Shown: piece by piece, positions 1-62,535 of the stretch | How positions within the stretch are numbered: position 1 is the first letter of the stretch | Layout of the letters: each line of letters begins with the position of its first letter | Assembly: GCA_021292105.1 (NCBI GenBank) | Contig: CM037866.1 | Span: 474,756-538,755, forward strand | Reading direction: 5' to 3' | DNA length: 64,000 nt | Source: Anadara kagoshimensis | Taxonomy: Eukaryota > Mollusca > Bivalvia > Arcoida > Arcidae | The notes under the pieces: model-generated | Told to the model about the DNA's origin: nothing | Seen by the model: the letters and a program-made list of their open reading frames with translations, nothing else | Database searches by the model: none | Translations under genes and position numbers: made by a program

Positions 1-1757
1 ACCCAGAAATATAAACCATCCATACTGCTCCAGGATCACCAAACCTAAAACAATAAAATACCCAGATCTATAAACCATCCATACTGCTCCAAGATCACCA
101 AACCTAAAACAGTAAAATACCCAGAACTATAAACCATCCATACTGCTCCAAGATCACCAAACCTAAAACAATAAAATACCAGAACTATAAACCATCCATA
201 CTGCTCCAAGATCACCAAACCTAAAACAGTAAAATACCCAGAACTATAAACCATCCATACTGCTCCAAGATCACCAAACCTAAAACAGTAAAATACACAG
301 AACTATAAACCATCCATACTGCTCAAAGATCACAAAACCTAAAACAATAAAATACCCAGATCTATAAACCGTCCATACTGCTCCAAGATCACCAAACCTA
401 CAAACAGTAAAATACCCAGAACTATAAACCACCGATACTGCTCCAAGATCACCAAACCTAAAACAGTAAAATACCCAGGACTATAAACCATCTATACTGC
501 TCCAAGATCACCAAACCTAAAACAGTAAAATACCCAGAACTATAAACCATCCATACTGCTCCAAGATCACCAAACCTAAAACAGTAAAATACACAGAACT
601 ATAAACCATCCATACTGCTCCAAGATCACCAAACCTAAAACAATAAAATACCCAGAACTATAAACCATCCATACTGCTCTACGGTCACCAAACCTAAAAC
701 AGTAAAATACCCAGAACTATAAACCATCCATACTGCTCCAAGATCACCAAACCTAAAACAGTAAAATACCCAGAACTATAAACCACCGATACTGCTCCAA
801 GATCACCAAACCTAAAACAGTAAAATACACAGAACTATAAACCATCCATACTGCTCCAAGATCACCAAACCTAAAACAGTAAAATACCCAGAACTATAAA
901 CCACCGATACTGCTCCAAGATCACCAAACCTAAAACAGTAAAATACACAGAACTATAAACCATCCATACTGCTACACGGTCACCAAACCTAAAACAGTAA
1001 AATACCCAGAACTATAAACCATCCATACTGCTCCAAGATCATCAAACCTAAAAACAGTAAAATACCCAGAACTATAAACCATCTATTCTGCTACAAGATC
1101 ACCAAACCTAAAACAGTAAAATACCCAGATCTATAAACCATCCATACTGCTCCAAGATCACCAAACCTACAAACAGTAAAATACCCAGAACTATAAACCA
1201 CCGATACTGCTCCAAGATCACCAAACCTAAAACAGTAAAATACCCAGAACTATAAACCATCTATACTGCTCCAAGATCACCAAACCTAAAAACAGTAAAA
1301 TACACAGAACTATAAACCATCCATACTGCTCCAAGATCACCAAACCTAAAAACAGTAAAATACCCAGAACTATAAACCATCCATACTGCTCCAAGATCAC
1401 CAAACCTAAAACAATAAAATACCCAGAACTATAAACCATCCATACTGCTCCACGGTCACCAACCTAAAACAATAAAATACCCAGAACTATAAACCATCCA
1501 TACTGCTCCAAGGTCACCAAACCTAAAACAATAAAATACCCAGAACTATAAACCATCCATACTGCTCCACGGTCAACAAACCTAAAACAATAAAATACCC
1601 AGAACTATAAACCATCTATACTGCTCCAAGATCACCAAACCTAAAACAATAAAATACCCAGAACTATAAACCATCCATACTGCTCCACGGTCACCAAACC
1701 TAAAACAATAAAATACTCAGAACTATAAACCATCCATACTGCTCCAAGATCACCAAA
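1..1757. repeat. 59-bp satellite array, left part
   Basis: About 30 head-to-tail copies of a 59-bp unit (core 'ccatccatactgctccaaga'). Variants include caataaaata/cagtaaaata and ccaagatcacc/ccacggtcacc. Some copies are 60 bp. The array runs off the left edge of the window and is interrupted at 1757 by a transposon; it resumes at 13506 with the same variants. Short open frames on the minus strand arise only from the repeat period and are not genes. Confidence 0.97.
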
Positions 1758-2000
1758 CCCTTACGGAAAAAACTTATAGAGACTTATAAGTGAATTGTCA
1801 TTGACTGATAAGTCACTTATAAGCTACCTATAATTCACTTATACACGCATATTTAATGAAGTAAGTGAAATATAAGTTTATATAAGTATAAGTGAAAAAT
1901 GTTTAGACTGATAATCCACTTATAAGTGACTTATAAGTCTGTATTTAATTACTTATAAGTCTTTATAAGTGGCTGATAAACTGTATAAGTGAGACACTGT
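1758..2000. repeat. left terminal inverted repeat and subterminal palindrome cluster
   Basis: The terminal inverted repeat covers roughly the first 20 bp. Further inward are at least four exact copies of the 10-bp palindrome ACTTATAAGT and many partial copies (TCACTTATA, TATAAGTGA). In CACTA elements such subterminal motif clusters are the binding sites of the element's accessory protein. Here binding is inferred, not shown. Confidence 0.85.
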
Positions 2001-2030
2001 TATAACAAACAGAAAACTTAGAAAATTTAA

Positions 2031-2120
2031 CATCTTGTGGACTTAAAAAAATTTTGATCTTGTGGACTTAGAAAAATTTTGATCTTGTGGACTTAGACAA
2101 ATTTTGATCTTGTGGACTTT
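2031..2120. repeat. 25-bp minisatellite inside the transposon
   Basis: About 3.5 copies of a 25-bp unit (gatcttgtggacttagaaaa plus atttt) lie between the subterminal region and the transposase 3' end. The rest of 2121-2803 is AT-rich and without a gene; it holds a poly(A) signal for the minus-strand transposase near 2730. Confidence 0.8.
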
Positions 2121-2803
2121 TTGTCGAAATATTCATGGTAAAAAAAAGAGGTTCGTTTGGCCTGTGACGCTCACCTTGGTCATTTACTCTTTTCAATACT
2201 AGTTAGTGATAACTGACAAGAAATTGTGCAAAAAAAAATTTAAGCCAATAAATACAACTATAGCTTATTAACCTGTATCATACCTTCTGTTTAACATTGC
2301 AAGTTTAAACTAAAAAGCCAAATGTGCACTTGCATATCACAAAGGAGAAACGCAAATGTTAAATGGTAAGTCTTGACATTTTACCTTATTTAAGAAAAAT
2401 AAATTGTGAATCATTTTTGCAATTCATACTTTTAACTAATTTTTATTACTTTTAAAGAAAATTGCTTACAAATGCGAAAAAAATCCTTTAAAAAAATTCA
2501 AGGGCAGTAACTACCACACACATAATGATCAGTTATTATGAAATTTAACTTATTGCTGTATAATTTCTTGTTCTGATCAATTTTTGGAAATAGTTTCATA
2601 TTCCCTAATATTCTTCAATAACAATAACTCACTCAATCACTGTATGAAATTGAAATCCCAGGGTCAAGATCTATAAAATTTGAAGAACACATCTCACACA
2701 AACAAAAGCAGATACAGAATGCAATGACATTTATTATCTGTTTATAAAAATAGAATATGACTATCCTATTATTCCAATAAAAGTTTTAATTGTCAAGCAT
2801 GGA

Positions 2804-5505
2804 TTAGTCATTCTCTAATCTATTTGGCATCCTGCATACATAAACTGTATTGGGTTTATCAAGTACCTCTACAAAAACACACTTGTATAATATATTTCTT
2901 AAAGGAATAATTTCAGTATCATGTATGTTTCTTGGCTTCAAAGGGACAATGTGACTTATGCAACCACTGTTTGTAGTTTCATGCTGCCCGATAAGTTCAC
3001 CATTTCTTTTTAACTTTGATACCATTGCAACATTGTCAGATATACAGCCACACTGAATAGTTCTATGCTGACTACAAAATGGATACAACTGCAGATAAAA
3101 CTCTACTTGTCCATACTCTAATCCACCACTCTTTGATAAGTAAGCAATTGTGTAACTGTTCCGTGCCCGACATCTTTTGTACCTACGGGAATGGAAAACT
3201 TCATCATCAATCTTAATTCTATTAAATGTCAAATAAGTTGATGGACAATGGCCCAAATATACAGATACAACATTCAGTTCTTTAGGAAGCAATTTGGTGT
3301 TATTACTTGAACCAATTACATAAGTATTATACTCTAGATGTTTATCATTCCTTGTGCAAAGTCCTTTCAATGAGTTGAAGAAATCCATTTCTGGGGTGTC
3401 TGAATGAAGATACTTTGTCTTCATATTGGGTAAACATTGCATAACACATACAGTTTGTGCAATTTGTACATCTACATGCTGTGTACCATGGTACAGTTTT
3501 AACAGAACACCATTGGCATTTTCAAATGGAAAACAAGAATAACACCACATTGGACCCATATCCCATACCAATTTTGGCAAGTGTAACAACTGATGAACAT
3601 TACATGTCATGTATCTGTCTCCATACAGTGCTGCAAAAAGACAACAGAAATTTTTGATCTGTTTGTCACAATTTTGCAAGTCTGATATTGATACAGAGTC
3701 TTGGAGAAGTAGATAAACTGCACTCACAAATAAAAGATAGTGATCATAATAAATTTTAGTGAGAATATCCTTTAAAACAGGCAGTGAATAATATAGCAAC
3801 CATGATCGCAGTTCTGATGCTTTCCAGTATTTCATATGATCTTTAATAGATCGCGGAACTCTGGTTATGCTGTTAGGTGGTTTGATGTTCTTTATTCTTT
3901 TATCTACCAAATCAACTAAACTTGATACAGAAAAGAATTCTGAACTTTTTTCTGAGGAAAACCACAGATTCATTAATAATTTTGTTACTCCCAACAAAAC
4001 GCCATGCATATAATCAATGCAAACACCATCGACAAGGTCATAATACTGTAGACACTGAAGAAATGTTGGTCCTTTAATTCCATTTATGACAGTGTCTGTT
4101 TCCAGTGCTTTAATTCCGTCACTCTTTACTCCATCATGACTTCTAAGCTGGCCCTCTGGACTATCTACTTGGAATGGGAAAATATGCACATGTCCCCTTG
4201 CACTGGTCTTGCAAGTTTCTCCTGGTTGTAGACACTTGCAGCATCCATATTTCCCATTAAATTGTACCGAATTGCATACAAGACTTCTTGCAGGCAAGTC
4301 TGCAGTGCCTCCTATGACAATAACATGACTAGTAAATGTGGTATCTAATGTCTGAATTTCAACACCTACTGTTTCCATCTGTTTGAGACTTTTTAAAAAG
4401 GGTTCTGTGTATGAAATAATTGATGGTTTTTTTGAGCCATACCACAGACCTCCTAATATCATGAAATCAGGATTTACCCTTTTACTGTATGGGAGTTCAT
4501 TTATTTGGAAGAACAACGGCCAGAGTGACATGTTTGATGATTTAAAACATGGAATTCCATCAGTGTTCCAAAGTAATGATAAATTGTTACTGTTGCTTAG
4601 AATCTGACCTGGTGCTGACAAAGCTTTATAAATTTTTCCATCATATATATCTTCTATGCTACTTTCGCACTTTTTTTTCCTTTGAAACCTGTGTTGAATA
4701 TCCTTTCTGAATGAAGGTCTTGCAAATAAGTTTTTAATTTGTGAAGCAATAGGAACTTCTATAAAATGGGAAACTGTATTGTCCATTGTTAAGTCTTTTC
4801 CGCAAGAATTATTAGGGCAAACTCCTATTTCAATGTCACTTTCACTTAACACCAAGTGACAATTGTTGCAATATTTGTGAAATTTCAGAGGTTGCTTTAC
4901 ATCTTCAAACCACTTCCAAAACTGCTTTTTTGTTCGAGGTAAAATGCATTCCGACGGACAGTGCAAATTAATAAGTTCAAGTAAATGACACAGTCCTTCA
5001 CCAGTCAGTGAATACTTCAGTGCAAAGTTAATAATGAGTAACATACTTGCACCCAATGTTAGATTTGACCCACTGTAAAGAGGCCTTTCACCATTATTAT
5101 TGTCATCTGAAATCTCATTTTCATTTTCACTACAACTATCATCTGTGTTAGATATATCATCTCTACAATCAATATTAACATCATAACTGATATCACTTGC
5201 TTCATAATATGATTGATATTCAGTTTCAGCACAATGATTTTCCATAAAATTATCATGACAGACATCCACATCTCCACCTTCTTCAAAACGTATATTGAAA
5301 TCTTGCTGCTGGGTTTGGGATATGGTACTTTCAGCAGTTAATTTACCAAGATTTTCATGAGCATCTGTCTGGATTTTTTCTTGTTCATATAATGCACTTT
5401 GTTGTGGCAATGTTGAAGACAGAGAATCACCAGTGTTTACCAGTCTATTTGAAACTTGTCTTTCTTGAAGTTCATTACCAGTATCATCCTGACAAACTGG
5501 TGAAT
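2804..5505 (-). CDS. CACTA/EnSpm (Tnp2-type) transposase, main exon
   Basis: This exon encodes about 900 residues of a DDE-type transposase that would cut and join the ends of the surrounding element. Residues are numbered from the Leu codon at 5410. There is an acidic N-terminal segment (about 45-105), then a Cys4 zinc ribbon (C181, C184, C198, C203). The RNase-H-like core has 'NTDG' (D284), 'TADLPAR' (D371), a Cys motif around 390-400, the family hallmark 'DYMHGVLLGVTKLL' (466-479), 'NVHQLLHL' (604-611) and 'FPFENANG' (E630). D284, D371 and E630 are the likely catalytic triad. The frame is open upstream of 5410 to a good acceptor (TTTTGTATTACAG, exon starts at 5505) with no ATG before residue 56, so translation must begin in an upstream exon. 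The reading frame here has no internal stop. Stop is TAA at 2806-2804. Family assignment is from motif recognition. Confidence 0.87.
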
Positions 5506-6460
5506 CTGTAATACAAAATTAATTCTCATATAATATTATCTATTAAGCATGTTACATTATAATTCTGTATTAATATTTCAGTCATTCTCATCAAGAGAGA
5601 ACAATTAATTACATTAGCTAATTTATATGCTGGAATTTTGAATAGATCAAAATTTATAAATAAAATCTTTAATTTGCCTTCTTTTAAATTGAGTTTCTGG
5701 TAATGACTACTCAATTCAATCTTTCAATATAATTTTTTATGCTATGGCTTCATAGAGATATATTTGTGTAAAAGGAAGAATCATACCCTACCTTAAGTTT
5801 ACCCATGTAACATTTCAGCCCAAAAACAAGTTTGTTCCTTTTGTCCAGGGACGATATGACACAGGGCAAAATAATGCAGGGTGAAATGTTAAAGTAAAGC
5901 TATTTGGTTTCGAATGAAGTTTGTTTCAAAGTCCAGATGACTTACTTTGACTGTATAATATTAATCATTATTTAACCAAAAAATAATTAGCACTACATAA
6001 TTTTACATGAATAATTATTATTTGATTCAGGTGTGTATAGATTTAGTTTCTTACTGGCTTTACATAACCACATGTCAAAAATGGCTGCCATGATTTCTTT
6101 CAAAGTTTTTTTTTTAAATTGACAACAACGGCTTATTTATCTGGTAATATGTTTTCCCATGCCAGATTAGATTTATCTGAACAGGAAGACGTAAGATTTT
6201 AATTCTTAGAATAAACTCAAGATTCAGAATTAACATTGTATGAATGGGGGGGGGGGGGGTACGGTCGTAAATATGGGTTAAATCAAGAAAATATCTGCTT
6301 ATTGAAAATATAGATTAATCACATATAATTTTAATCACAGTTAACTGGTTCATCTTTGCTAATTTTTGGGTTGTGTCCAGCCTCATATCGCGTGTCGTGT
6401 AGATTTATTTATCTCAAAATAATTACGGTTGCTTTTATGTTGTAAATAACGGATACATAC
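5506..6460 (-). other. transposase intron 1 (AT-rich, no gene)
   Basis: The donor GTATGT (6460 downward) and the acceptor TTTTGTATTACAG (5506) both match consensus. The intron contains a 14-G run near 6247-6260 and no convincing coding sequence. A 62-codon open frame at 5526-5714 is AT-rich noise. Confidence 0.6.
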
Positions 6461-6595
6461 CTACAGTACTGCAAGACTCGGCTGCAATTCGTTGTAAATA
6501 TCTTCTTGATGAATCAGGAGCATGAAGAATAGGATCTCGTTGTTTTAAATACAAGTTATAGGGTCCCGTTTTTGATTTCTACAACGCCTCGCCAT
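6461..6595 (-). CDS. transposase exon 1, probably frameshifted
   Basis: An ATG in strong context (CAAGATGG, 6595-6593) starts MARRCRNQKRDP, which hits a stop after 16 codons. The next reading frame of the same exon continues with 'YLKQRDPILHAPDSSRRYLQ' to a consensus donor (GTAG|GTATGT, last exon base 6461). That second frame joins in phase to the main exon at 5505, creating a GAT codon across a 955-bp intron. The exon is 135 nt; joining the ATG frame to the main exon would need a length of one more than a multiple of three. The simplest reading is a one-base loss between the start codon and about codon 16. An alternative start in another exon is possible. Confidence 0.6.
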
Positions 6596-6945
6596 CTTGT
6601 TTATTGTTTGTTAACAATAGGTCGCTTGCATCCCACTTCCGGTTCAGACATCAATGTTTAATTGTAAGAGAAATGTATATGCTTTCAAAAAGTTTGTTTT
6701 TCAAAATTAATTGACTGCAGAACTATATATATATATATATATATGTATATATTGAATCCATATTTATTAAGAATTTTTTTTAATTGCTGTAAGGTGTGGC
6801 CTCGTTTTTGATATCCTAATTTGATTGGTTGAAAATATTTATCCCGCCAGTTTTAAGCGTGGTATTAAATGGACAGCAACATTTAAATAGAGAAAGAGTT
6901 GGATCGTTCTAGATTATTATATTTAATCACAATATTATTGAAAAA
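6596..6945. promoter_or_regulatory. shared divergent promoter region of the transposon genes
   Basis: These 350 bp separate the start codon of the transposase (minus strand) from that of the BEN gene (plus strand), so both promoters must lie here or overlap the first exons. It holds an AT-dinucleotide tract at 6725-6744 and TATA-like stretches; no single core promoter stands out. The head-to-head arrangement suggests joint expression. Confidence 0.45.
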
Positions 6946-9900
6946 ATGTTTGGTGAGGAAATAGAGCATATATTTTGCCTCTTGTTTTGGTATAACAATG
7001 AAAGAAAATGGACAATTCAAGACACAGTCTCGATTGTAAAACCAAGGAAAGATGCAGAGCAGTACAAGGAAGGTGAACTGGTTTATGCCAAATTTTCCCA
7101 AAAAACATACAAAGCTGCCATTGTGCGACTAAGAGGTAAATATAAAACTGCATACATAATAATAACAACAACAATGTGACAGGAATGAATTGTAAAGCAA
7201 TCTTTAATTCTTCAAAATTATCTCCCTTTAGTCATTTATAAGTGTTTTCTAATTCAATAATTGCTTTTATTTCTCTAAAAGCTGTTTCATTTCTAACATT
7301 TGTTTTATTTTTTTAAACTATTGTGTTTCCAGTTCTATTCCTGATACTGATGACTGAAAATCTTGTCTACAATCTCATTGGTCCTGGAAAACATATTTTA
7401 GTAATAATAATAATAATAACTTTTATTGGAAAACTGAAATATACAGTGTCATCCATTACATGATATAAAACATAGAAATCAAATATATTAACATAACAGT
7501 ACATATAATTGTGACAATCACTCTCCGCAATCTAATGAATTACAAACATAAGTACCTGATGTCGGTCCATCAGTGCAATACTGGATTAGCTAGTGAAAAA
7601 TTACCCTCCATTTGTATATGTGTTAAATACATGTAAAATGTTTTCATATACATACACTCGTATATATGTGTATATACATACATACCAGTACCTATCCATA
7701 TTTCTATATAAAGTAAAATTAAAATTATATTATTATATTATGTATATTCATTACATCTTAGAACCTGTGTCATGTGCTATCTTTGAATTTAGCACATTTT
7801 TGAATGCATTATTTCATAAAAATTCAAAAACAGCACATGACACCTATATTATATTGCATCTGATGAACCGAGTCCATTTAATTAAGTTACTGTTATATGA
7901 CAATTTTTAACTTACTAAGTATATATATTTCAGCCCTGTGTCTTTCCCTCTCTAATATCTAATGCTAGCTTTAAGTATTTTTGTAAAGCTAAACATTCTT
8001 TCAAATTATTTGGATTTAAAACCCTTTTAATAAGCTCTAAAGGAATATTTTTTACCAAAGAATTTTCTAAAATATCATATGAGGTAAATAAGTTTACTCG
8101 AAGTGAGCTATATATAGGGCATTTTTAAAATCTTCAACTTCTTGACAGTTTTTGCAGATTCTTTTATCACATGGTGTTTTTGGTTTTGTATATCTTCCTC
8201 TCTCTATGGCAAGTGAATGTGAACTTATTCTAAAAGCTGCAATGCTTGATCTGATGTTTTTTGAGATTGGAAGTGACACATAATATGGAATATTTTCATT
8301 ATGTAAGTTGCTAAATAATTCAAGTTTACTTTCAATTTTCCCAGTTTTAATTTTATTCAAAAATGTTTTTGTATTGGATGTTATAGTAAGACAAACTGTT
8401 AGACTCTTTTTTAAAAAAAAGATAATAGAATTTTTATATTTTGGACCATAAAATTAAGTTTTCATATCAAAGATTAATATACTATTTTGTATTACTATTC
8501 ATGCAAATTTGTTTCACGATATTTAGTGACATAATATTTTGACAGAATTTTACAAAGAAAACTGTTATTATATAATATCCCTTAGGGAAATAATATATAC
8601 AGTATTATAAATCCAATTATGAAAATCTTAATTCAGCAATTAAGAAAGTTCCCATGTAAAGTTTGTCTAGTGAATATTAATTTCTCTAACGTCATAGCTT
8701 GAGGCATAATGAAATTATTGCTCAAATTTTTTTAGAATTTACTTCCTGTCGCTCTATTGAAATCTATAATTATTGTGCTTAGGGGTATAAAGACATCAAA
8801 AGTAATAAGTTGTTTTTGAAGTATTGAATTATATTTAACCTCAACTTACTTGTTTATTGTATAAGAATTGTAAAATTTTTGGACAGTTTGAATTGATCTA
8901 CAAAATGACACCTCATATTGATGAAATTCAAAATTAATAATAATAATAATAAAAAAAAATTATTAAATTTGAAAGATCCCAGTTATGAGAGAAAATATAT
9001 GGAATGAATTTAAATGATAATGGAACATACTGAAGCCATATATTTATTTATTAATATGAGATATGTGACATCCATGCATTATTGCTTATTTCTTTGTCAT
9101 AGAGACCAAAGAAGATTTAACAGAAGATGCCAAGAAATTGGAAAACCTGTTTAATGCCAACTTAGGTCTAACACCTAATGAGATTATGGAACAAATGGGA
9201 GTTCCAGTAACCACAGCAATGCAGGAAGATGAAGGTACACATTACAGGATGAATCCAGTTTTTCAAACAGCTGGATTTCAATCCAATTTTTTTTTTACTG
9301 GGTATTTTGGAAAAAGGATCCTGGGGTTATTAGTGAGTGAGTTATGGTGTTTAACATCCCAGTCAAGATTATTTCACTTATATTGAGACGTTGCCAGCGA
9401 AAGTGCAGAAATTTTGCCTGTGCATTGCGCTGATGGCAATATACAGCAGGGTTCTTTAGCAGGCCATGCCATGCCATGCCACATGACCTCATTCCCATCC
9501 GAAAGAACCGTGACTTTCATTTTGTAATGCCGAGTGCTTGACAAAAGAACAGTCACTACCCAATTTCAAGTTTTAGGTCAGACCCGGCCGGGATTGAACC
9601 CACAACCTTTCACTTACAGAGCAAGCACTCTACCAACTGAGCTACCATAGTGGTGACCTGGGTTATTATAAAATCTGGCAAAATGTATCAAAAAATGAAA
9701 ATTGAGAAAAATATCAAAATTAATAATATTTATTAAAACTTTTTAATTTCATCATAAAGTTAATATATACACTATTTACAAATGATACTGGTTTTGCTTT
9801 GAAAGTTTCTAGGTCCTCATTCGAGACTTTTGAGGTCCTTTGACACTTTTAGAACAAATTTTATTAATCAAATAGGGAGAAAAAAATAATGACTTTTCCT

Positions 9901-12883
9901 CTGGGAATGGGGCCCATATTCAGCCCTGAGGAAGTGTTTAAAAATTCCCTGCATCAAATAAATTTTGAGAATAATTTAATTTAATTTAATCCTGTAGGCA
10001 ATGTGGTGCAGAAAACACCTGCTACACAGAATACCAAGCCATCTACCAATAAAGACAGCAAAAAACAAAAAAAGCCAGTGAAATCAAAAGAAAGTACAGA
10101 AAATACACCGAACGCAAAAAGAAGTAAAAGTGATAAAGATGAACAATCAGAAAATAAAAAAGCAAGCAATATACTTAAGGATGAAAAAAAAAATCAACGA
10201 GTGGCAAATCTTGAGGCTGCCAAGATTATGGCCAAAAAAATTACCACCAATGAACTGTTTTGCCAGGATGTTGAAACAACTGCTCATGATCAACCAATAG
10301 CACCATTCCAAAATTCAGCAAATATAAATTTAGAGACAACCAGTAGTGTGTCTGTGGTCAGATATGAAGAACCACAACCCACTAATAATCAATTTAACGA
10401 GCAATATAGTGGATTGACCCCATATAATGTTCCACAGCCTTTAAATACACAGTATCAACCAGGATTTACATATACAAATATGCTGACCTGCATGAATGAG
10501 GCAAACTCTGCTTTATATGGTAGCTACCCTGGACAGGATGACAACATTTGCAGGGATCCCAATTGCCACGTAAACTGCAAAAGTACAATCGATGCATTGC
10601 AGCAAAAAATTGATGAAATGCAAAGCAAAATACAGTTTCTAGAAAGTCAGCATATGCGTGGCTTTCTAGACAAGCTTGCAAAAAAAAGTAAGTGCCACCA
10701 TGCCAATTTTTCTCAACTTTTTTTTCCAACATAAAATAAATTATCAGTATGTATCAACATGTTAGGTAGGGACAGGAGGAATTCAAAAGTTTTCAAATTG
10801 TAATTTGCTGAAGTTATTTGAAAACATAGTATCTATTTAATACATGTAGTACTATAACAGCATCTCTGGGTATATACTCCCATGTCCATCTAAAGTCAAC
10901 ATTTTTATTTTATAAAATCGGTCCTAAAAAGTGTTTGTTCTATCTTTTCATGTTTTTCTCTGGTATATTTTCATAATTATGTTGTGTCATATTCCTGGTT
11001 GTGTTGGCTATTGCCAAATACATGTTGTTAGCTGCAAATCACTTTTATAATATTTGTTAAAATTAGTCTCATTTTCGTAAATTATGATGAAAAAAAATTA
11101 TTATTGCCAAATTCTTGACCAAGTCAACAGTTACGACTGATCTTTAACATAATTTACAATGTTTATTTATATTAATTTCAAAAAAGTGTTCGAGAAAAAA
11201 AGAAGAAAATGAAGGATAGTTTCAACTCGAAAGTCAACTTTAATGCATTTTTACTGTTTTTACTATGTATAGTTATATGTGTTGCTTTCCTTTTTGTTTA
11301 TTTATCTTTTTTATTTATTTCATAAATTGCAGTTTCATCAAGTGATTCCTTTGATGTTAACTCGAATACACCGAGACGGCCTGCAAAAAATATAGATGTT
11401 TCGAAAATGGAAAATTATACAGCTCCGTCTTCAAATTCCAGCATCTCAGGGCTAGCTTCTCCATCTCATTGTGGAGCGGACACCATTAGAGACACTTCAA
11501 ACAGTCCCCTACTTCATGTAAGTATAACAGTTTAAAAGGAGCTATTTTAACATTTGTAGTATAACTGAATATGTCGGTTTCTGTGGTGTCAAATAAAAAC
11601 TGAGCACTTTCAACTCTTTCTGCTTTCACCTGCAATAAGTGAAAATGTATGATCATCTACATGTATTATACTTAGTAACCATACAGTTACGTATGTAGTG
11701 TTGAAGAAATAAAGAAAATTATGTTCTTCTTGTTGATTTTTTGTCCCAAACCTTACACATTGTCATTTCAGTGTTCATGAAATATTTTCTTTTTAGTTAT
11801 ATTGAGTATATGTATCATTGCCAAGTACCATTTTAACAAATCAGTCTTGACATGTAACTTATTAGAAAATCAAAATTGGATATTTGGTCCTAAAATGTAA
11901 CATATCTGGTTGAACCAATAAAAAATTTACCAATGTCAGGGACACGGTTGTCTCTTTTAGTAAATCTAAAACTTTATTTTATTTTTAGAACTCACAAATG
12001 GTGGAATTAGTTGCTGGTTCAGGAGTGACAATTTCCACCAGTCAGCTGAATATGTGTGAAAGAAAAGCAAAGGAAAGTGGAACTGCCTTGGCACGGCTTT
12101 TGTTAGTGGTGTTCTTTGATGCAAAAACACTAAGTGAAAGTTGTGCCAGAGGCAGTGGCTCATCCAAAAGAAAGATGTTGGAACCAAGCATCACAGAGGC
12201 CATAATACGTAAGAGAATGAATTTAAATGTTAAGCTTGTATCTACATATATATATATATATATATATAGTTAAAATTTAAAATATTAAGCAAGCTGTCTT
12301 TTATTATTTTAAATATATATTTATATATACATACAGTTGAATCTCATTATCTGGAATTCCACAGGGAATTTAACTTGCATGTATCCAAAATTCCAGATAA
12401 ATGGCTTAACATCATAAGATTAGTCAGTTGTGATTTCCAGCTTGATAGAAATTTTTTTGAAAAAACTAAATGTCTGCCATTAAGAGGAATAATACTACTA
12501 AATAGATTAAGGAAGTCATGAGCTGTTTATCTGACATGTATCAAAACATTAGTATTTGTTGTAGCTACCTACTGTCATGTCTTGGGTCAGTCCAAGATGG
12601 GAATCAAACTTAAAACCTCCCAATTATGAAGCTAGCAGTATACTAACTAAAGGTTGCTATTTGCAGAGATAGTTAGGTGTGTGTTGATCTCTGACTGAAT
12701 TTCATCTTTTATTGGTTTGCAGATTAGTTTAATGATGTTTTTTTTCTATTTGCAGAATACTGTCTCAACTTCAAACAGAAGAAAGTGAATGAAAAAGAAA
12801 TTGTTCAGGCAATAAACAATAAATGTTCTGATGTGAGACAAGAGTTTACAAAAACCCCAAAATCAAAAAAAATAAGTTTGTGA
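6946..12883 (+). CDS. BEN-domain protein encoded by the transposon (six exons)
   Basis: Exons are 6946-7135, 9103-9234, 9998-10687, 11333-11517, 11989-12208 and 12756-12883. All junctions are GT..AG and the phases match throughout, giving 514 residues. Residues 10-65 ('LLFWYNNERKWTIQDTVSIV', then 'YKEGELVYAKF...YKAAIV') resemble the N-terminal module often found before BEN domains. Residues 108-180 are Lys-rich and probably nuclear. A Cys cluster (CRDPNCHVNC) and a short coiled coil (ALQQKIDEMQSKIQFLES) lie near 290-320. A Ser/Pro linker follows. The last two exons (400-514) form a BEN domain: 'ESGTALARLLLVVFFDAKTL', 'LEPSITEAII', 'EIVQAINNKCSDVRQEF'. BEN domains bind DNA and act in chromatin and transcription. 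Its place in the element, opposite the transposase, suggests the accessory role that TNPA plays in En/Spm. Start is the first ATG of exon 1. A co-opted host gene is less likely because the gene lies wholly within the TIRs. Confidence 0.82.
7403..8362 (-). mobile_element. 3' fragment of a non-LTR retrotransposon (LINE)
   Basis: It lies in intron 1 of the BEN gene, on the opposite strand. At 8360-8100 the minus strand encodes 'FRISSHSLAIERGRYTKP...RICKNC', the Cys-rich C-terminal motif that follows reverse transcriptase in many mollusc LINEs. After a frame change near 8100 the frame continues ('LELIKRVLNPNNLKECLALQ...LALDIRE') to a TGA near 7931, the usual end of such ORF2 proteins. The 3' tail ends with an AATAAA and (TTA)n near 7403-7430, typical of a LINE 3' end. 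The reverse transcriptase core is absent, so this is a 5'-truncated dead copy. Confidence 0.7.
7767..7843. repeat. two-tier foldback hairpin
   Basis: GTGTCATGTGCT (7767-7778) pairs perfectly with AGCACATGACAC (7832-7843). Within the loop TTTTTGAAT pairs with ATTCAAAAA. It may be a structured LINE 3' UTR or a tiny foldback insertion. Confidence 0.65.
9333..9657 (-). mobile_element. tRNA-derived SINE in intron 2 of the BEN gene
   Basis: On the minus strand the 5' head has a tRNA-like A box (TAGCTCAGTTGG) and B box (GGTTCAATCC). The tail contains a conserved 'ATATAAGTGAAATAATCTTGA...GATGTTAAACACCATAACTC' type sequence shared with the other SINEs here. It is flanked by near-identical direct repeats CTGGGGTTATTA (9321-9332) and CTGGGTTATTA (9658-9668), a target duplication with one base difference. 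It is not a functional tRNA gene. Confidence 0.85.
12246..12268. repeat. TA dinucleotide microsatellite
   Basis: A simple (TA)n run just after BEN exon 5, within intron 5. Confidence 0.9.
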
Positions 12884-13134
12884 GAAATTGTTAATTAGTG
12901 ACTGGATTTTATTTTAATGGAAGAAAACAGTTATAATACTTACAGTTAAAAAAAGAGAAAAGGAATTGGATTTGAGAAAGATTCATTAAGATGGAATTAT
13001 GCAACACAAATTATTACAATAATAAATAGCAAAATATGATTTATATATGTACATATACATGTATATTGTTATTTTTTAGATATATGAACAATTAGTTCAA
13101 CATGTTTTTCATGGTAACTAACCTGTTTGTGTTG

Positions 13135-13505
13135 TAAGTGAGTCACTTATAATTCACTTATAAGTCACTGACACTTCACTTATAAGTCACTGATACTTCA
13201 CTTATAAGTCACTGATACTTCACTTATAAGTAAAAATGTGTATCAATTAAAAGTGAATTATCTCAGACTTATAGTTCACTTATAAGTCTTTCACTCATAC
13301 ATGTTGTAACTCACTTATAAGTTGATTATCAGTGTAAACTCATTTGCATATTAAAATCCAGATAAGTCACTTATAAGTCACTGATATAAGTCGCTTATCA
13401 GTCAATTATAAGTTTTGTATCACTCACTTGTAAGTGAATTGTAATTCACTTATAAGTTTTGATATAATTCACTTATAATCCACTTGTAAGTTTTTTCCAT
13501 AAGGG
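13135..13505. repeat. right subterminal palindrome cluster and terminal inverted repeat
   Basis: At least eight exact ACTTATAAGT palindromes occur, several in a local tandem of about 21 bp (gatacttcacttataagtca), plus many half sites. The final 19 bp are the inverted repeat of the left end (TAAGTTTTTTCCATAAGGG). Confidence 0.87.
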
Positions 13506-14655
13506 AAACCTAAAACAATAAAATACCCAGAACTATAAACCATCCATACTGCTCCACGGTCACCAAACCTAAAACAATAAAATACTCAGAACTATAAACC
13601 ATCCATACTGCTCCACGGTCACCAAACCTAAAACAATAAAATACCCAGAACTATAAACCATCTATACTGCTCCAAGATCACCAAACCTAAAACAATAAAA
13701 TACCCAGAACTATAAACCATCCATACTGCTCCACGGTCACCAAACCTAAAACAATAAATACCCAGAACTATAAACCATCTATACTGCTCCAAGATCACCA
13801 AACCTAAAACAATAAAATACCCAGAACTATAAACCATCCATACTGCTCCACGGTCACCAAACCTAAAACAATAAAATACCCAGAACTATAAACCATCCAT
13901 ACTGCTCCAAGGTCACCAAACCTAAAACAATAAAATACCCAGAACTATAAACCATCCATACTGCTCCACGGTCAACAAACCTAAAACAATAAAATACCCA
14001 GAACTATAAACCATCTATACTGCTCCAAGATCACCAAACCTAAAACAATAAAATACCCAGAACTATAAACCATCCATACTGCTCCAAGATCACCAAACCT
14101 AAAACAGTAAAATACCCAGAACTATAAACCATCCATACTGCTCCAAGATCACCAAACCTAAAACAGTAAAATACCCAGAACTATAAACCATCCAAACTGC
14201 CCCAAGATCACCAAACCTAAAACAGTAAAATACACAGAACTATAAACCATCCATACCGCTCCAAGATCACCATACCTAAAACAGTAAAATACCCAGAACT
14301 ATAAACCATCCATACTGCTCCAGGATCACCAAACCTAAAACAATAAAATACCCAGATCTATAAACCATCCATACTGCTCCAAGATCACCAAACCTAAAAC
14401 AGTAAAATACCCAGAACTATAAACCATCCATACTGCTCCAAGATCACCAAACCTAAAACAATAAAATACCCAGAACTATAAACCATCCATACTGCTCCAA
14501 GATCACCAAACCTAAAACAACAAAATAACCAGAACTATAAACCATCCATACTGCTCCAAGATCACCAAACCTAAAACAACAAAATAACCAGACCTATAAA
14601 CCATCCATACTGCTCCAAGATCACCAAACCTAAAACAGTAAAATACCCAGAACTC
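13506..14655. repeat. 59-bp satellite array, right part
   Basis: About 19-20 further copies of the same 59-bp unit found at 1-1757, ending at 14655 where unique sequence begins. The unit broken by the transposon is complete when the two sides are compared, apart from the duplicated AAA. Confidence 0.97.
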
Positions 14656-18191: not shown

Positions 18192-18521
18192 TAGCAGGCA
18201 GGTCAGTTGATAGAGTGCTTGCTCCGTAAGTTAAGGGGGTTGAGGGTTTGGTCTCTGGTCAGGTCTTACCCAAGAATTGAAAAAGTGTAGTGACTGTTCG
18301 CTCGGCATTGAAAAATGAATGTGGGTCATTCGGACAAACCTAAAAAACCGAGGCCCTTGTCACGGTAGGGGTGGCACAATAAAGAACTCTCACTGCATAA
18401 TGCCATCACCCCAAAGCACAGGTAAGTATTTCTGCATCTACACCTATAGCTGGTGATGTCTCGATATAAGTGAAATATTATTGACTTAGAAGTTAAACCC
18501 CATTAATCAATGATCAATCAA
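18192..18521 (+). mobile_element. tRNA-derived SINE, plus strand
   Basis: A tRNA-like head ('ggtcagttgatagagtgctt') is followed by the body shared with the other SINEs (agtgactgttcgctcggcat; gtctcgatataagtgaaata) and the tail 'gttaaaccccattaatcaatgatcaatc'. The head is diverged in the A and B boxes, so this copy is old. No clear target duplication was found. Confidence 0.75.
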
Positions 18522-22443: not shown

Positions 22444-22778
22444 TATAAATTGATTGATTGCATGGAGTTTTACGGGTTTTTACGTATTTCAGTCATATCA
22501 AGACGTCACTAGTGGCAGAAATGTTGACCTTTGCAGTGAACTTAGGGAAATGTGCAGGAACAGTTTCTTAACATGTTACACCCGCCTTGGCACTGGGCAT
22601 AGGATTTTAAGATCTCTCTCAAAGGATCTCGTGACTTTCGTTACGAAATACCGAGTATTTGGCAAAAGAACAGTCACTACCTTATATCAAGTCTTGGTCA
22701 GACCCAACTAGGGTTCGAACCCAGGACTCACCACATACGGGGAGTGAGCGCTATACCAATCGAGCTACAGTAGGGGTA
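22444..22778 (-). mobile_element. tRNA-derived SINE with 14-bp target duplication
   Basis: The minus-strand head contains a tRNA-like B box (GGGTTCGAACCC on either strand) and A box region (TAGCTCGATTGGTATAGCGC). The body matches the SINE at 9333-9657 (aaagaacagtcactacc). The tail ends in CAATCAATCAATTTA. Exact direct repeats TTTAATGAGAAAAT flank it (22430-22443 and 22779-22792), so this is a clean retroposition. Confidence 0.88.
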
Positions 22779-26019: not shown

Positions 26020-29000
26020 TACAGGGAATTGCATATCGGAGATAACTGTGTATATTATACACCGATACTGTGGGTAGAGGGCGCGGTGGCCTAATGGATA
26101 AGACGTCAGTCTTCAAATCCAGGGTCTCTCACCGCTGTGAGTTCAAGTCCCAATCGAACCACATGTGGGAAAGTGAATTTTCCTAACCGTTGACCTTTAC
26201 TGATTCACCTGGTATCAGTATAATGGACTGGGGAAGTGGTACGCTTGTCTGCGGTGTACTGACTCTGTGAGCTAGCACGGTAAAGTCGCCCTGAGTGCGC
26301 GCTAGTACAAGGCAGACCATACAACACACTCGCACTTCACATGCATACACAAAAAATTGTTCATAGATAAATCCATAGAGATTAATTAAATATATCAGCG
26401 AATAGCTGAAAAATTGCTGATGCGACGTTAAGCAACATTCAACCAACCAACAACCAACGATACTGTGGGAACAGATAATTGCCACGTGTATATTATACAC
26501 CAGTACACTGGGAACAGATAACTGTATAATATACACCGGTACAACTGTGTATACTATACACCGGTACACTGGGAACAGATAACTGTATATACTATACACC
26601 AGTATACTAGGAACAGATAACTGTGTATGTTATACATACACCGGTACACTGGGAACAGATAACTGTATATACTATACACCGGTATACTGGGAACAGATAA
26701 ATGTGTATATTATACACCGATACTGTGGGAAAAGATAATTGTCACGCGTATAATATACACCGGTAAACTGGGAACAGATAACTGTGTATACTATACACCG
26801 GTACACTGGGAACAGATAACTGTATACTATACACCGATACTGTGGGAACAGATAACTGTGTATATTATACACCGATACTGTGGGAACAGATAACTGTGTA
26901 TATTATACACCGATACTGTGGGAACAGATAACTGTGTATATTATACACCGATACTGTGGGAACAGATAACTGTGTATATTATACACCGATACTGTGGGAA
27001 CAGATAATTGTGTATATTATACACCGATACTGTGGGAAGAGATAACTGTGTATATTATACACCGATACTGTGGGAACAGATAACTGTGTATATTATACAC
27101 CGATACTGTGGGAACAGATAACTGTGTATATTATACACCGGTACACTGGAAACAGATATATGTGTATACTATATATCAGTACACTGGGAACAAATAACTG
27201 TATACTATACACCAGTACACTGGGAACAGATAACTGTATACTAGACACCGGTACACTGGGAACAGATAACTGTGTATACTATACACCAGTACACTGGGAA
27301 CAGATAACTGTATACTATACACCGGTACACTGGGAACAGGTAACTGTGTATTCTATACACAAGTACACTGGGAACAAATAACTGTATACTATACACCGGT
27401 ACACTGGGAACAGATAACTGTGTATATGATACACCGGTACACTGGGAACAGATAACTGTATACTATACACCGGTACACTGGGAACAGATAACTGTATACT
27501 AGACACCGGTACACTGGGAACAGATAACTGTGTATACTATACACCGGTACACTGGGAACAGATATATGTGTATATGATACACCGGTACAATGGGAACAGA
27601 TAACTGTATACTATACACCAGTACACCGAGAACAGATAACTGTGTATACTATACACCGGTACACTGGGAACAGATAACTGTGTATATGATACACCGGTAC
27701 ACTGGGAACAGATAACTGTATACTATACACCGGTACACTGGGAACAGATAACTGTATACTAGACACCGGTACACTGGGAACAGATAACTGTGTATACTAT
27801 ACACCGGTACTCTGGGAACAGATAACTGTATACTATACACCGGTACTCTGGGAACAGATAACTGTATACTATACACCGGTACACTGGGAACAGATAACTG
27901 TGTATATGATACACCGGTACACTGGGAACAGATAACTGTATACTATACACCGGTACACTGGGAACAGATAACTGTATACTAGACACCGGTACACTGGGAA
28001 CAGATAACTGTGTATACTATACACCGGTACACTGGGAACAGATATATGTGTATACTATACATCAGTACACTGGGAACAAATAACTGTATACTATACACCA
28101 GTACACTGGGAACAAATAACTGTATACTATACACCAGTACACTGGGAACAGATAACTGTGTATATGATACACCGGTACACTGGGAACAGATAACTGTATA
28201 CTATACACCAGTACACCGAGAACAGATAACTGTGTATACTATACACCGGTACACTAGGAACAGATAACTGTGTATACTATACACAAGTAAACTGGGAACA
28301 AATAACTGTATACTATACACCAGTACACTGGGAACAGATAACTGTGTATACTATACACTGGTAATCTGGGAACAGATAACTGTGTATATTATACACCGGT
28401 ACACTGGGAACAGAAAACTGTATAATATACACCGGTACACTGGGAACAGATAACTGTGTATACTATACACCGGTAAACTGGGAACAGATAACTGTGTATA
28501 CTATACACTGGTAAACTGCGAACAGATAACTGTATACTATACACCGGTACACTGGGAACAGATAACTGTGTATACTATACACTGGTTAAATGGGAACAGA
28601 TAACTGTGTATACTATACACCGGTAAACTGCGAACAGATAACTGTATAGTATACACCAATACACTGGGAACAGATAACTGTATACTATACACCGTTACAC
28701 TGGGAACATATAACTGTATTACTATACACCAGTACACTGGGAACAGATAACTGTGTATACTATACACCGGTACACTGGGAACAGATAACTGTATACTATA
28801 CACCGGTACACTGGGAACAGTTAACTGTGTATACTATACACCAGAACACTGGGAACAGAGAACTGTATACTAGACACCGTTACACTGGGAACAGATAACT
28901 GTATACTATACACCGGTACACTGCGAACAGATAACTGTGTATATGATACACCGGTACACTGAGAACAGATAACTGTATACTATACACCGGTACACTGGGA

Positions 29001-32000
29001 ACAAATAACTGTATACTATACACCAGTACACTGGGAACAGATAACTGTATACTATACACCGATACACTGGGAACAAATAACTGTATACTATACACCAGTA
29101 CACTGGGAACAGATAACTGTATACTATACACCGGTACACTGCGAACAGATAACTGTATACTAGACACCGGTACACTGCGAACAGATAACTGTATACTAGA
29201 CACCGGTACACTGCGAACAGATAACTGTATACTATACACCAGTACACTGGGAACAGATAACCGTATACTATACACAAGTACACTGGGAACAGATAACTGT
29301 GTATACTATACACCGGTAAACTGGGAACAGATAACTGTGTATACTATACACCGGTAAACTGCGAACAGATAACTGTATACTATACACCAATACACTGGGA
29401 ACAGATAACTGTATACTATACACCGTTACACTGGGAACATATAACTGTATATACTATACACCAGTACACTGGGAACAGATAACTGTGTATACTATACACC
29501 GGTACACTGCGAACAGATAACTGTATACTATATCGTTACACTGGGAACAGATAACTGTGTATACTATACACCAGTACACTGGGAACATATAACTGTATAT
29601 ACTATACACCAATACACTGGGAACAGATAACTGTATACTATACACCGTTACACTGGGAACATATAACTGTATATACTATACACCAGTACACTGGGAACAG
29701 ATAACTGTGTATACTATACACCGGTACACTGGGAAAAGATAACTGTATAATATACACCGTTACACTGGGAACATATAACTGTATATACTATACACCAGTA
29801 CACTGGGAACAGATAACTGTGTATACTATACACCGGTACACTGGGAACAGATAACTGTGTATACTATACACCGGTAAACTGCGAACAGATAACTGTATAC
29901 TATACACCAATACACTGGGAACAGATAACTGTATACTATACACCGTTACACTGGGAACATATAACTGTATATACTATACACCAGTACACTGGGAACAGAT
30001 AACTGTGTATACTATACACCGGTACACTGGGAACAGATAACTGTATAATATACACCGTTACACCGGGAACATATAACTGTATATACTATACACCAGTACA
30101 CTGGGAACAGATAACTGTGTATACTATACACCGGTACACTGGGAACAGATAACTGTATACCATACACCGTTACACTGGGAACATATAACAGTATATACTA
30201 TACACCAGTACACTGGGAACAGATAACTGTGTATACTATACACCGATACACTGGGAACAGATAACTGTATAATATACACCGGTATACTAGGAACAGATAA
30301 CTGTGTATACTATACACCGGTAAACTAGGAACAGATAACTGTGTATACTATACACCGGTAAACTGCGAACAGATAACTGTATACTATACACCAATACACT
30401 GGGAACAGATAACTGTATACTATACACCGTTACACTGGGAACAGATAACTGTGTATGATACACCGGTACAATGGGAACAGATAACTGTATACTATACACC
30501 AGTACACTGGGAACAGATAACTGTATACTATACACCAGTACACTGGGAACATATAACTGTATATACTATACTCCAGTACACTGGGAACAGATAACTGTGT
30601 ATACTATACACCGGTACACTGGGAACAGATAACTGTATACTATATCGTTACACTGGGAACAGATAACTGTGTATACTATACACCAGTACACTGGGAACAG
30701 ATAACTGTATACTATACACCGGTACACTGGGAACAGGTAACTGTGTATACTATACACCAGAACACTGGGAACAGATAACTGTATACTAGACACCGGTACA
30801 CTGGGAACAGATAACTGTGTATACTATACACCAGTACACTGGGAACAGATAACTGTATACTATACACCGGTACACTGGGAACAGATAACTGTGTATACTA
30901 TACACCAGTACACTGGGAACAGATAACTGTATACTATACACCGGTACACTGGGAACAGATAACTGTGTATACTATACACCGGTACACTGGGAACAGATAA
31001 CTGTATACTATACACCGGTAAACTGCGAACAGATAACTGTATACTATACACCAATACACTGGGAACAGATAACTGTATACTATACACCGTTACACTGGGA
31101 ACATATAACTGTATATACTATACACCAGTACACTGGGAACAGATAACTGTGTATATTATACACCGGTACACTGGGAACAGAAAACTGTATAATATACACC
31201 GGTACACTGGGAACAGATAACTGTGTATACTATACACCGGTAAACTGGGAACAGATAACTGTGTATACTATACACTGGTAAACTGCGAACAGATAACTGT
31301 ATACTATACACCGGTACACTGGGAACAGATAACTGTGTATACTATACACTGGTAAAATGGGAACAGATAACTGTGTATACTATACACCGGTAAACTGCGA
31401 ACAGATAACTGTATACTATACACCAATACACTGGGAACAGATAACTGTATACTATACACCGTTACACTGGGAACATATAACTGTATATACTATACACCAG
31501 TACACTGGGAACAGATAACTGTGTATACTATACACCGGTACACTGGGAACAGATAACTGTATACTATACACCGGTACACTGGGAACAGGTAACTGTGTAT
31601 ACTATACACCAGAACACTGGGAACAGATAACTGTATACTAGACACCGGTACACTGGGAACAGATAACTGTATACTATACACCGGTACACTGCGAACAGAT
31701 AACTGTGTATATGATACACCGGTACACTGAGAACAGATAACTGTATACTATACACCGGTACACTGGGAACAAATAACTGTGTATACTATACACCGGTACA
31801 CTGGGAACAGATAACTGTATACCATACACCGTTACACTGGGAACATATAACAGTATATACTATACACCAGTACACTGGGAACAGATAACTGTGTATACTA
31901 TACACCGATACACTGGGAACAGATAACTGTATAATATACACCGGTATACTAGGAACAGATAACTGTGTATACTATACACCGGTAAACTAGGAACAGATAA

Positions 32001-36539: not shown

Positions 36540-36775
36540 TTACCTTTGCAGTGCTCTCAGGGACGGTTCTTAAACGTGCCACGCCTGCCGTGATACGAGA
36601 CATGTCTTCTGAAGGACCTCGTGACTTTCATTTCTAAATGCCCAGCCTCGGCGTCCTTCGGAAGGAACAGTCACTATACCTTTTAAGTCTTGGTCAGACA
36701 CGACCGGAGTTCGAACCCACGAGCCACCCACATACGTAGAAAGCAATCTACCAACTAAGCTGCCGCAGTGGTTGC
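36540..36775 (-). mobile_element. tRNA-derived SINE, 3'-truncated
   Basis: The minus-strand head has an A-box-like GGCAGCTTAGTTGG and a B box (GGGTTCGAACTCC). The body shares 'ggaacagtcactata' and 'cctcgtgactttcattt' with the SINEs at 9.4 and 22.6 kb. The usual tail is missing. Confidence 0.75.
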
Positions 36776-47700: not shown

Positions 47701-48317
47701 AAATTTGCTTAGCGTTATGTTCATTTATTGTAGAAAATAAGCTTAGCGTCATGTTCACTTATTGTAGAAACTTAGCTTGGCGTTATGTTCACTTATTGTA
47801 GAAACTTAGCTTAGCGTGATGTTCACTTATTGTAGAAAATTAGCTTAAAGTCATGTTCACTTATTGTAGAAACTTAGCTTAGCGTCATGATCAATTGTAG
47901 AGAAACTTAGCTTAGCGTTATGTTCACTTATTGTAGAAAATAAGCTTGGCTTCATGTTCACTTATTGTAGAAAATTTGCTTGGCTTCATGTTCACGTATT
48001 GTAGAAAATAAGCTTAGCTTCATGTTCACTTATTGTAGAAAATTTGCTTAGCGTGATGTTCACTTAATATAGAAACTTAGCCTATAGTCATGTTCACTTA
48101 TTGTAGAAACTTAGCCTATAGTCATGTTCACTTATTGTAGAAAATTAGCCTGGCGTTTTGTTCACATATTGTGGAAACTAAGCTTAGCGTCATGTTAATT
48201 TATTGTAGAAAATTAGCAAGCGTCATGTTCACTTATTGTAGAAAATTAGCTTGGCGTCATGTTCACTTATTGTAGAAAATTAGCTTAGCGTCATGTTCAC
48301 TTATTGTAGAAAATCAA
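41745..48317. repeat. 34-bp satellite array, copy 1 (6.6 kb)
   Basis: About 190 copies of a 34-bp unit (gttcacttattgtagaaaat plus tagcttagcgtcat). Higher-order blocks are visible, for example offsets of about 953 bp (44411 to 45364) and about 1224 bp (46341 to 47565). The 5' part has older, more varied units (ctcgacgccatgttagc). The array ends exactly against the TTAA of the next element. Confidence 0.97.
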
Positions 48318-48321
48318 TTAA

Positions 48322-49591: not shown

Positions 49592-49623
<32 letters not shown>

Positions 49624-62472: not shown

Positions 62473-62535
62473 ATATTTCTTTGAAATTTGCCTAAGTCAC
62501 ATACATGATATAAAAAGAACAATTATTATAGCAGT

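Follow-up and report, generated by a model that had tools for sequence, protein, structure and literature searches.

A BEN-domain gene as the probable TNPA-like partner in a two-gene CACTA transposon of Anadara kagoshimensis

Positions 1758-13505 of the window (the whole 64,000-nucleotide stretch of Anadara kagoshimensis DNA analysed here) hold a transposon that is best read as an animal CACTA element of the TRC type with a BEN gene. It appears to belong to a diverse two-gene group in which the BEN protein most likely acts as an end-binding partner in transposition, similar to TNPA; we put the chance that this reading is right at about two in three. The anatomy of the element, the recurrent pairing of its two genes, the conservation of both as proteins between families A (that of the window copy) and A2, and the concentration of repeats at the ends are seen directly. 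How would such a system work? The genes for a DDE transposase of Tnp2/RAG1 fold and for a BEN-type protein would travel as a pair, flanked by matching ends. The BEN protein would bind repeats just within both ends (in families A and B these are palindromes), draw the ends together and recruit or stabilise the transposase, and it may also control the divergent promoter, like TNPA in maize Spm. Transposition would require the BEN protein.

The boundaries of the element are well fixed, because AAA stands on either side and the element interrupts a 59-bp satellite array (Table 1). The inverted ends are 19 bp long with a single mismatch (CCCTTACGGAAAAAACTTA against inverted CCCTTATGGAAAAAACTTA, 18/19 bases identical), as clean as an earlier note on this DNA had claimed; its 3-bp target duplication also holds for the window copy, as AAA inside the satellite. 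Related copies have 2-bp duplications where these are readable: TA, TA and GA at three of the five two-ended sites of family B (no match at the other two) and, judged by eye, TA at one of two A2 sites. Terminal repeats starting with CCC occur at both ends in A, A2 and B and at the single end read in D. The plant-type terminal motif CACTA is absent from the ends of the window element, which have CCC instead, so that the description as CACTA-like stands by the transposase and not by the ends, which are those of the animal TRC type.

Table 1. Features of the element and its target, in window coordinates
Feature	Position	Strand	Basis or remark
Host 59-bp satellite array, left target part	1..1757	.	
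Left target-site duplication AAA	1755..1757	.	satellite unit CACCAAACCTAAAAC split between two AAA copies
Left terminal inverted repeat CCCTTACGGAAAAAACTTA	1758..1776	+	
Left subterminal ACTTATAAGT palindrome array, 4 exact	1772..1990	.	
Tnp2-type transposase main exon	2804..5505	-	acceptor AG at 5506-5507 read from sequence
First transposase exon KSKTGPYNLYLKQRDPILHAP...	about 6462..6595	-	resembles first part of Tegillarca granosa KUTeg_009075
Short intergenic region, putative divergent promoter	6596..6945	.	position only
BEN gene exon 1, conserved N-terminal 63 aa	6946..7135	+	
BEN gene exon 2	9103..9234	+	
BEN gene exon 3, lysine-rich linker, coiled coil by eye	9998..10687	+	
BEN gene exon 4	11333..11517	+	
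BEN gene exon 5, bulk of BEN domain	11989..12208	+	
BEN gene exon 6, BEN domain end and stop	12756..12883	+	
Right subterminal ACTTATAAGT palindrome array, 8 exact	13138..13495	.	
Right terminal inverted repeat, CCCTTATGGAAAAAACTTA on minus strand	13487..13505	-	
Right target-site duplication AAA	13506..13508	.	
Host 59-bp satellite array, right target part	13506..14654	.	

The open frame of the transposase spans 2804-5518 on the minus strand, and Pfam profile search bears out its earlier description as Tnp2-like, with matches to Transposase_21 and DUF1258 (E 1.6e-8 each) that exceed the Pfam cut-off. The ATG of the first exon is, in the window copy, out of frame with the exon's conserved part. 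Among 22 aligned sequences (the window's and 21 of 57 database relatives), all 22 match Transposase_21 at E<=1 and three residues are invariant, D320, D407 and E569. In the predicted model D320 and D407 each lie just past a strand and E569 lies within a helix, and we infer that these residues form the DDE catalytic triad of an RNase H fold. Fold prediction gives the transposase a RAG1-like core and a BAH-like C-terminus; for this C-terminus there is no Pfam BAH match at E<=1 in the 22 sequences and no sequence match in the PDB. Named database relatives come from Tegillarca, Littorina, Saccostrea, Pinctada, Mytilus, a sea cucumber, a fish and a wasp, and a scan of viral contigs with the alignment returned 31 pattern matches, none of them a relative.

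Divergent from the transposase runs the second gene, whose six exons, as previously proposed, are joined across GT/AG introns into an unbroken 514-aa frame. Its C-terminus is what identifies it: residues 401-506 match the solved BEN domain of NAC1 (E 6.9e-10), and the Pfam BEN profile scores 19.1 bits (E 0.0015), under its cut-off of 23.2. At E<=1 Pfam lists BEN and two weak unrelated names, with no kelch, PHD or BTB. A search of 5.8 billion proteins found no relatives at E<=1, either for the whole protein (best 7996 candidates scored) or for residues 396-514 (1412 candidates); this search requires shared exact words, and gene models may be unspliced, so that a null result does not amount to absence. 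Searches of the open-licence PMC literature yielded no BEN gene inside a transposon. Three papers came up: in PMC5704228 the relevant words stand in the reference list, and the topic of PMC4574769 and PMC5322367 is wasp bracoviruses or wasp parasitism.

Which known systems does this arrangement resemble? Animal TRC elements are described with CCC ends and 2-bp duplications (PMC1636069), and SmTRC1 and Spongebob of Hydra share with the elements here Transposase_21, CCC ends and, in the relatives where readable, the 2-bp duplication (PMC1636069, PMC4298943); the 3-bp duplication of the window copy differs. For SmTRC1 its authors predicted a TNPA-like protein in 2006, and the second protein of SmTRC1, PrA, which that element makes from spliced transcripts, is reported to be without relatives (PMC1636069), whereas the second gene here is separate, divergent and endowed with a BEN domain. 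Plant Spm/En likewise has two proteins, a tnp2 transposase and a binder of subterminal repeats, a binding that is predicted here. TNPA is not known to have a BEN domain. The plant proteins TNPA and TNPD arise by alternative splicing from a single unit, in an element with CACTA ends (PMC2613891, PMC1636069); in Spm, TNPA binds the subterminal repeats and both proteins are required (PMC2613891). The RAG1-like catalytic core of ProtoRAG/RAG is, by predicted fold, also found in the window transposase. A RAG2-type partner, the point of comparison with ProtoRAG, RAG1-RAG2 and Transib, is absent here, the partner showing BEN and no kelch or PHD (Pfam, E<=1). ProtoRAG/RAG transposons make a 5-bp target-site duplication, against 3 bp in the window copy and 2 bp in its relatives where readable. 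Motifs common to RAG1, Transib and CACTA have already been published (PMC12730594).

What might a BEN protein be doing in a transposon? The repeats inside the ends suggest that it may bind DNA there. Exact copies of ACTTATAAGT number 12 in the two ends of the window element (850 bp) and 0 in the intervening 10,898 bp. With one mismatch allowed there are six in 253 bp on the left and 12 in 376 bp on the right, against means of 0.08 and 0.09 (maximum 1) in 500 dinucleotide shuffles, and the middle has a single one-mismatch copy, at 7234. Family B has a different repeat, ACCATGGT, with 19 copies in the ends and 0 in the middle; it contains a CATG core (CATG by itself is frequent in the B middle, 74 times). 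Ten copies of ACCATGGT adjoin the transposase of a family-C copy. The exact palindrome is rare in A2 (two left, one right, none in the middle), and the repeats of family D, TTACGCCTGG, seen at the single end read, are non-palindromic. The NAC1 BEN domain selects ACATGT, with CATG at its core; the palindrome CCAATTGG is the target of Insv and Elba1 (PMC7764960). These BEN proteins (NAC1, also NACC1, and the BEN-solo Insv and Elba1) share the domain with the transposon protein and have palindromic targets in those studied (PMC7764960), but they are host regulators, and the transposon protein is without BTB (Pfam, E<=1).

Could the BEN protein instead belong to the element but serve mainly in regulation or anti-silencing, at the divergent promoter and on host chromatin, and not in assembly of the transposition complex? 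Drosophila BEN proteins work in repression and insulation (PMC6911014, PMC6317261), the two genes point apart across a short region, the TET/JBP genes borne by DNA transposons of fungi are thought to aid escape from methylation (PMC12730594), and TNPA itself regulates its own promoter (PMC1636069). The repeats, however, lie at both ends and not at the inner promoter, with no exact copy in the middles of A and B, and we regard a mainly regulatory role as possible but doubtful.

Relatives of the element in the same genome differ in how much of the partner can be recognised. Family B moves as a unit: each of its eight equal-score transposase matches has a partner exon upstream (8/8), exon 1 lies 4025-4030 bp from the transposase at 10 of 11 loci, and the ends are CCCCTGCGAAATGG on both sides at five of seven sites. 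Its C-terminal exon matches Pfam BEN at E 0.0032, under the cut-off, and its exons have no significant PDB match. The gene on C11 matches NAC1 at E 0.0012 and Pfam BEN at E 0.0082, under the cut-off; a D-gene relative on C13 reaches Pfam BEN E 0.0022, again under the cut-off. The D exons themselves have no BEN match in Pfam or the PDB, and the BEN case for D depends on the relatives L041 and L044. Profiles built with D and B segments included found those same segments again, which is not counted as evidence (the BEN profile used on upstream stretches also contained D); a profile without D and B matched the D segment weakly (E 0.0011, in a two-sequence database) and gave no match in B. In family C the N-terminal exon alone is seen, with single matches of E 0.26-0.30 whose only added weight comes from where they lie, and the one 10-kb upstream stretch read has no BEN domain. 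Both A2 copies have a transposase split over two frames. On C9, a member of the window's own family shows BEN exons, and the 40 kb read there hold no same-family transposase. Elements also nest and cluster: C12 has two family-D copies, and on C18 an A2 element lies beside a B element in one satellite.

Might the partner be an adaptor with a constant N-terminal exon, its C-terminal BEN domain a variable add-on? It is exon 1 that recurs in A, A2, B and C and, by profile, turns up upstream of one E-family copy (E 1.9e-6). Upstream of a D-group transposase, L047 combines a Tudor-like exon (Pfam Tudor_2 E 0.01, under the cut-off) with a C-terminal exon whose likeness to BEN is by eye only. Against it, BEN similarity extends over A, A2, B, C11 and the D relative, and the D copy read showed no exon 1; we judge the adaptor unlikely.

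The TNPA-like reading draws further on how often the two genes recur together. The sample comprises 47 transposase loci of one genome (from 50 matches scored of 242 candidates), among which copies that resemble each other are not independent events and transposase identity falls as low as 31-33%. A partner exon lies divergently upstream at 35 of the 47, 26 found with the window protein and nine with a family-D query; random placement expects 0.03 loci (12 kb) to 0.06 (25 kb). The window BEN query (matches to E<=1, within 12 kb) finds its 26 loci unevenly across families (A 1/1, A2 3/3, B and C together 22/24, D 0/12, E 0/7), and the D-type query finds its exon at nine of 12 D loci including C11, seven of them within 12 kb and all nine within 25 kb. 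Only divergent matches are counted as pairs; another 18 exon-transposase pairs within 12 kb are non-divergent and seem to be parts of neighbouring elements, and 39 of 77 window-type BEN exon matches are not divergently upstream of any listed transposase. That other copies might lack the BEN gene, a possibility raised in the earlier note, is countered at the 35 loci; the remaining 12 gave no match with the window or family-D query, and a possible partner exon appears in both of the two whose upstream stretches were read. The two-gene system suggested there gains support, since the pair recurs in several diverged families of one genome, and a back-to-back pair recurring in related elements suggests a working role for the second protein in the transposon.

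Both genes are, moreover, conserved as proteins in families A and A2. Between the window and the copy on C3, pN/pS is 0.24/0.74 for the transposase, 0.26/0.98 for BEN exon 1 and 0.30/0.86 for BEN exon 5. With synonymous sites saturated, the claim is limited to a dN/dS well below 1 (roughly 0.1), and the linker exon is looser (about 0.3). This conservation argues against a captured host chromatin gene (transduplication) that rides as a passenger with no part in transposition, as does the recurrence of the divergent layout in A, A2, B, D and C11. The second gene also diverges in step with the transposase (A2, 60-67% identity for the transposase and 58% for the C-terminal BEN exon against the window; C11, 43% and 26% for transposase and second gene; D, 39% and 17%). 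Fragments of host genes can occur within plant CACTA elements (PMC2613891), and the C9 copy keeps BEN exons with no same-family transposase in the stretch read; even so, the passenger reading is very improbable and in this genome largely refuted, and a single-copy host capture unique to this element is ruled out by the pair's recurrence in diverged elements. Chance neighbourhood of host BEN genes and separate transposons in repeat-rich DNA, for which the nesting on C12 and C18 and the 18 non-divergent pairs might speak, is refuted by the single pair of ends shared by the window's two genes, the near-constant spacing in family B and the 35 loci observed.

Tentatively, and with considerable doubt, this animal CACTA branch might be seen as a chromatin-aware system, in which a transposase predicted to be RAG1-fold and BAH-like works with a BEN-ending partner that reads the end repeats, partner and repeats changing together by family. 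If so, it would be a second, independent design that joins RAG1 to a chromatin partner, and some invertebrate BEN genes could descend from such elements. As for the TNPA-like role itself, the protein predicted for SmTRC1 was reported without relatives (PMC1636069), and the candidate here recurs in several families. Its DNA-binding fold is a known one and family-specific repeats accompany it at the ends, so that two purified domains and two short DNAs would serve to test the idea. Should that role hold, these transposons would be a possible source of animal BEN genes and a natural system to set beside RAG1 when asking how it came to act with RAG2.

The element starts with CCCTTACGGAAAAAACTTA at its left end, closes with CCCTTATGGAAAAAACTTA, inverted, at its right end, and is flanked by AAA on each side. 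A 59-bp satellite array forms its flanks, left and right, and because an uninterrupted satellite unit elsewhere in the array represents the empty site, the boundaries are fixed; the inverted repeats and 3-bp duplication described in the earlier note are borne out. Two divergent genes lie within, the exons of both being sequence-based predictions. The Pfam domains of the minus-strand main frame, whose exon has its splice acceptor at 5506-5507, agree with the Tnp2-like transposase first proposed. In the first transposase exon the ATG and the conserved part are in different frames, so the window transposase may lack a normal start. Pfam Plavaka is also matched by 4 of 22 aligned transposases (best E 8.7e-5), in agreement with the similarity of Plavaka and EnSpm transposases described in PMC12730594.

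Features of the window element
Feature	Position	Strand	Remarks
Transposon	1758-13505		two divergent genes within; terminal inverted repeats and duplication
Transposase, main open frame	2804-5518	minus	904 aa; Transposase_21 and DUF1258 (Pfam)
Transposase, first exon	about 6462-6595	minus	resembles first part of Tegillarca granosa KUTeg_009075
BEN gene, six predicted exons	6946 to 12883	plus	514 aa, no stop

Is the second gene a BEN gene? Residues 401-506 of its product align with the BEN domain of NAC1 (E 6.9e-10), whereas its Pfam BEN score falls below the Pfam cut-off; the divergent six-exon BEN gene of the earlier note is therefore upheld by the 514-aa frame and the NAC1 alignment but not by Pfam. 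At 9338-9654, in its intron 2, lies an interspersed repeat that is SINE-like by eye and includes a tRNA-like sequence on the minus strand; comparable stretches occur at 18197-18509, 22630-22777 and 36620-36772. Intron 1 has a 119-aa open frame (8094-8453, minus strand) which by eye resembles the tail end of a LINE-type reverse transcriptase and for which a Pfam search gave no match. A large part of the remaining window consists of long tandem arrays (26543-34459, 37193-41366, 41758-57049, 61307-62257 and 62533-64000), with units of 38, 29, 34, 72 and 73 bp.

The genome searched comprises 1.1 Gb in 36 contigs, and 50 of 242 transposase candidates were scored, giving 47 loci after merging. Among these hits the window transposase has no match at its own identity level, and the other copies of its family (A) are partial. 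One on contig C9 (27.40-27.42 Mb) retains BEN exons at 94-97% DNA identity, with no transposase of the window's family within the 40 kb examined; a further one (C9:28.415-28.422 Mb) is known from search matches to BEN exons, with 67-89% identity at the protein level; two copies on C14 and one on C15 preserve the final BEN exon together with the right end. Another family, A2, has copies on C18 and C3 that are about 99.4% alike. Their transposase, 60-67% identical to the window's, is split over two frames in both and also contains a stop in the C18 copy. CCC ends enclose it together with BEN exons 1, 2, 3, 5 and 6, in the order and orientation of the window; the A2 BEN exon shares 58% identity with that of the window. 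C13 carries a further A2-like locus, the third, where identity is 56-65% in the transposase and 52% in BEN exon 1. Between the window and C3, pN and pS are 0.235 and 0.74 for the transposase, 0.263 and 0.975 for BEN exon 1 and 0.295 and 0.863 for exon 5, and dN/dS reaches about 0.3 in exon 3, which is looser; as synonymous sites are saturated, we say only that dN/dS is well below 1.

Do other transposase loci carry the second gene? At 26 of the 47, a window-type BEN exon is found no more than 12 kb upstream in divergent orientation: 1/1 in A, 3/3 in A2, 22/24 in families B and C (11 pairs each), 0/12 in D and 0/7 in E. Exon 1 of family B is 46% identical to the window's (E 2.5e-10); in family C the evidence for a partner is exon 1 alone, at 31-32% identity and E 0.26-0.30 per match. 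When the D-type second gene serves as the query, 9 of the 12 D loci turn out to be paired, including C11 (7 within 12 kb, all 9 within 25 kb). Of the two longer gaps, the one on C12 is accounted for by a nested second copy. At C12:14887700-14897699 (L026) one family-D element seemingly sits inside another in opposite orientation. Altogether 35 of 47 loci are paired, against 0.03-0.06 expected from random placement, and the paired lineages are A, A2, B, C (exon 1 only), D and C11. Other copies thus have a partner exon at these 35 loci, and the remaining 12 gave no partner match. Upstream stretches were examined at two of the 12: at C3:39800861 one exon is Tudor-like (E 0.01) and another is BEN-like by eye, without support from Pfam or PDB, and C13:3643132 has a relative of exon 1 (profile E 1.9e-6). 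Of 77 window-type exon matches, 39 are unlinked to a listed transposase, many lying in the partial window-family copies (C9, C14, C15). Another 18 exon-transposase pairs within 12 kb are non-divergent and apparently involve adjacent elements. In this count near-identical copies are not independent events, and since the C24 matches mirror those at C9:28.41-28.43 Mb, shifted throughout by 28,409,305, C24 being likely a duplicate or unmerged haplotype of that region, one locus was probably counted twice.

Is the partner of BEN type in these families too? The C-terminal exon of family B matches Pfam BEN (E 0.0032), and its top solved structure is BEND6, at an insignificant E of 0.24. Family D exons match BEN in neither Pfam nor PDB; a D relative on C13 (44% identity) matches Pfam BEN (E 0.0022). 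For the C11 gene (35% identity) there are matches to NAC1 (E 0.0012) and to Pfam BEN (0.0082).

Family B also has the features of a mobile unit. Its C18 copy measures 15,768 bp between CCCCTGCGAAATGG ends, and among seven sites where these were sought, five have both (C18, C5, C8 twice and C3), while C19 and C11 have the transposase-side end only, with the last base differing in each. Two-bp duplications (TA, TA, GA) flank three of the five two-ended sites; the flanks at C18 and C3 show no matching duplication. Eight equal transposase scores suggest that the family-B copies are alike. At C18:42744400-42764399 (L025, L023) a family-B and an A2 element adjoin within one array of a ~51-bp satellite; as the window element also lies in a satellite, a preference for satellites is possible, but the flanks of several other B copies do not resemble the ~51-bp unit.

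Inside the ends lie short repeats. Exact copies of ACTTATAAGT number four in the left 400 bp and eight in the right 450 bp of the window element, and none occurs in the 10,898 bp between. The C18 copy of family B has 7 and 12 copies of ACCATGGT in its ends and none in its middle (in 500 shuffles of the B ends the averages were 0.06 and 0.03, maximum 2). ACCATGGT contains CATG and ACTTATAAGT is a different palindrome; the family D repeat lacks palindromic symmetry, so the repeats of a family need not be palindromes.

Both animal TRC elements and CACTA elements that encode a second DNA-binding protein are already known; searches of open-licence papers found no element whose second gene is a BEN gene, and to that extent the claimed novelty stands. 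What could the BEN protein do? In plant Spm, according to PMC2613891 and PMC1636069, TNPA binds subterminal repeats and is required alongside the transposase TNPD; here a transposase is accompanied by a predicted DNA-binding BEN protein. The site selected by the NAC1 BEN domain is ACATGT, whose core is CATG (PMC7764960). By comparison with Spm, and given the CATG in the family B repeat, the BEN protein is a natural candidate for a TNPA-like role: as the predicted counterpart of TNPA it would bind the subterminal repeats, and we infer that it may bridge the ends and take part in regulation.
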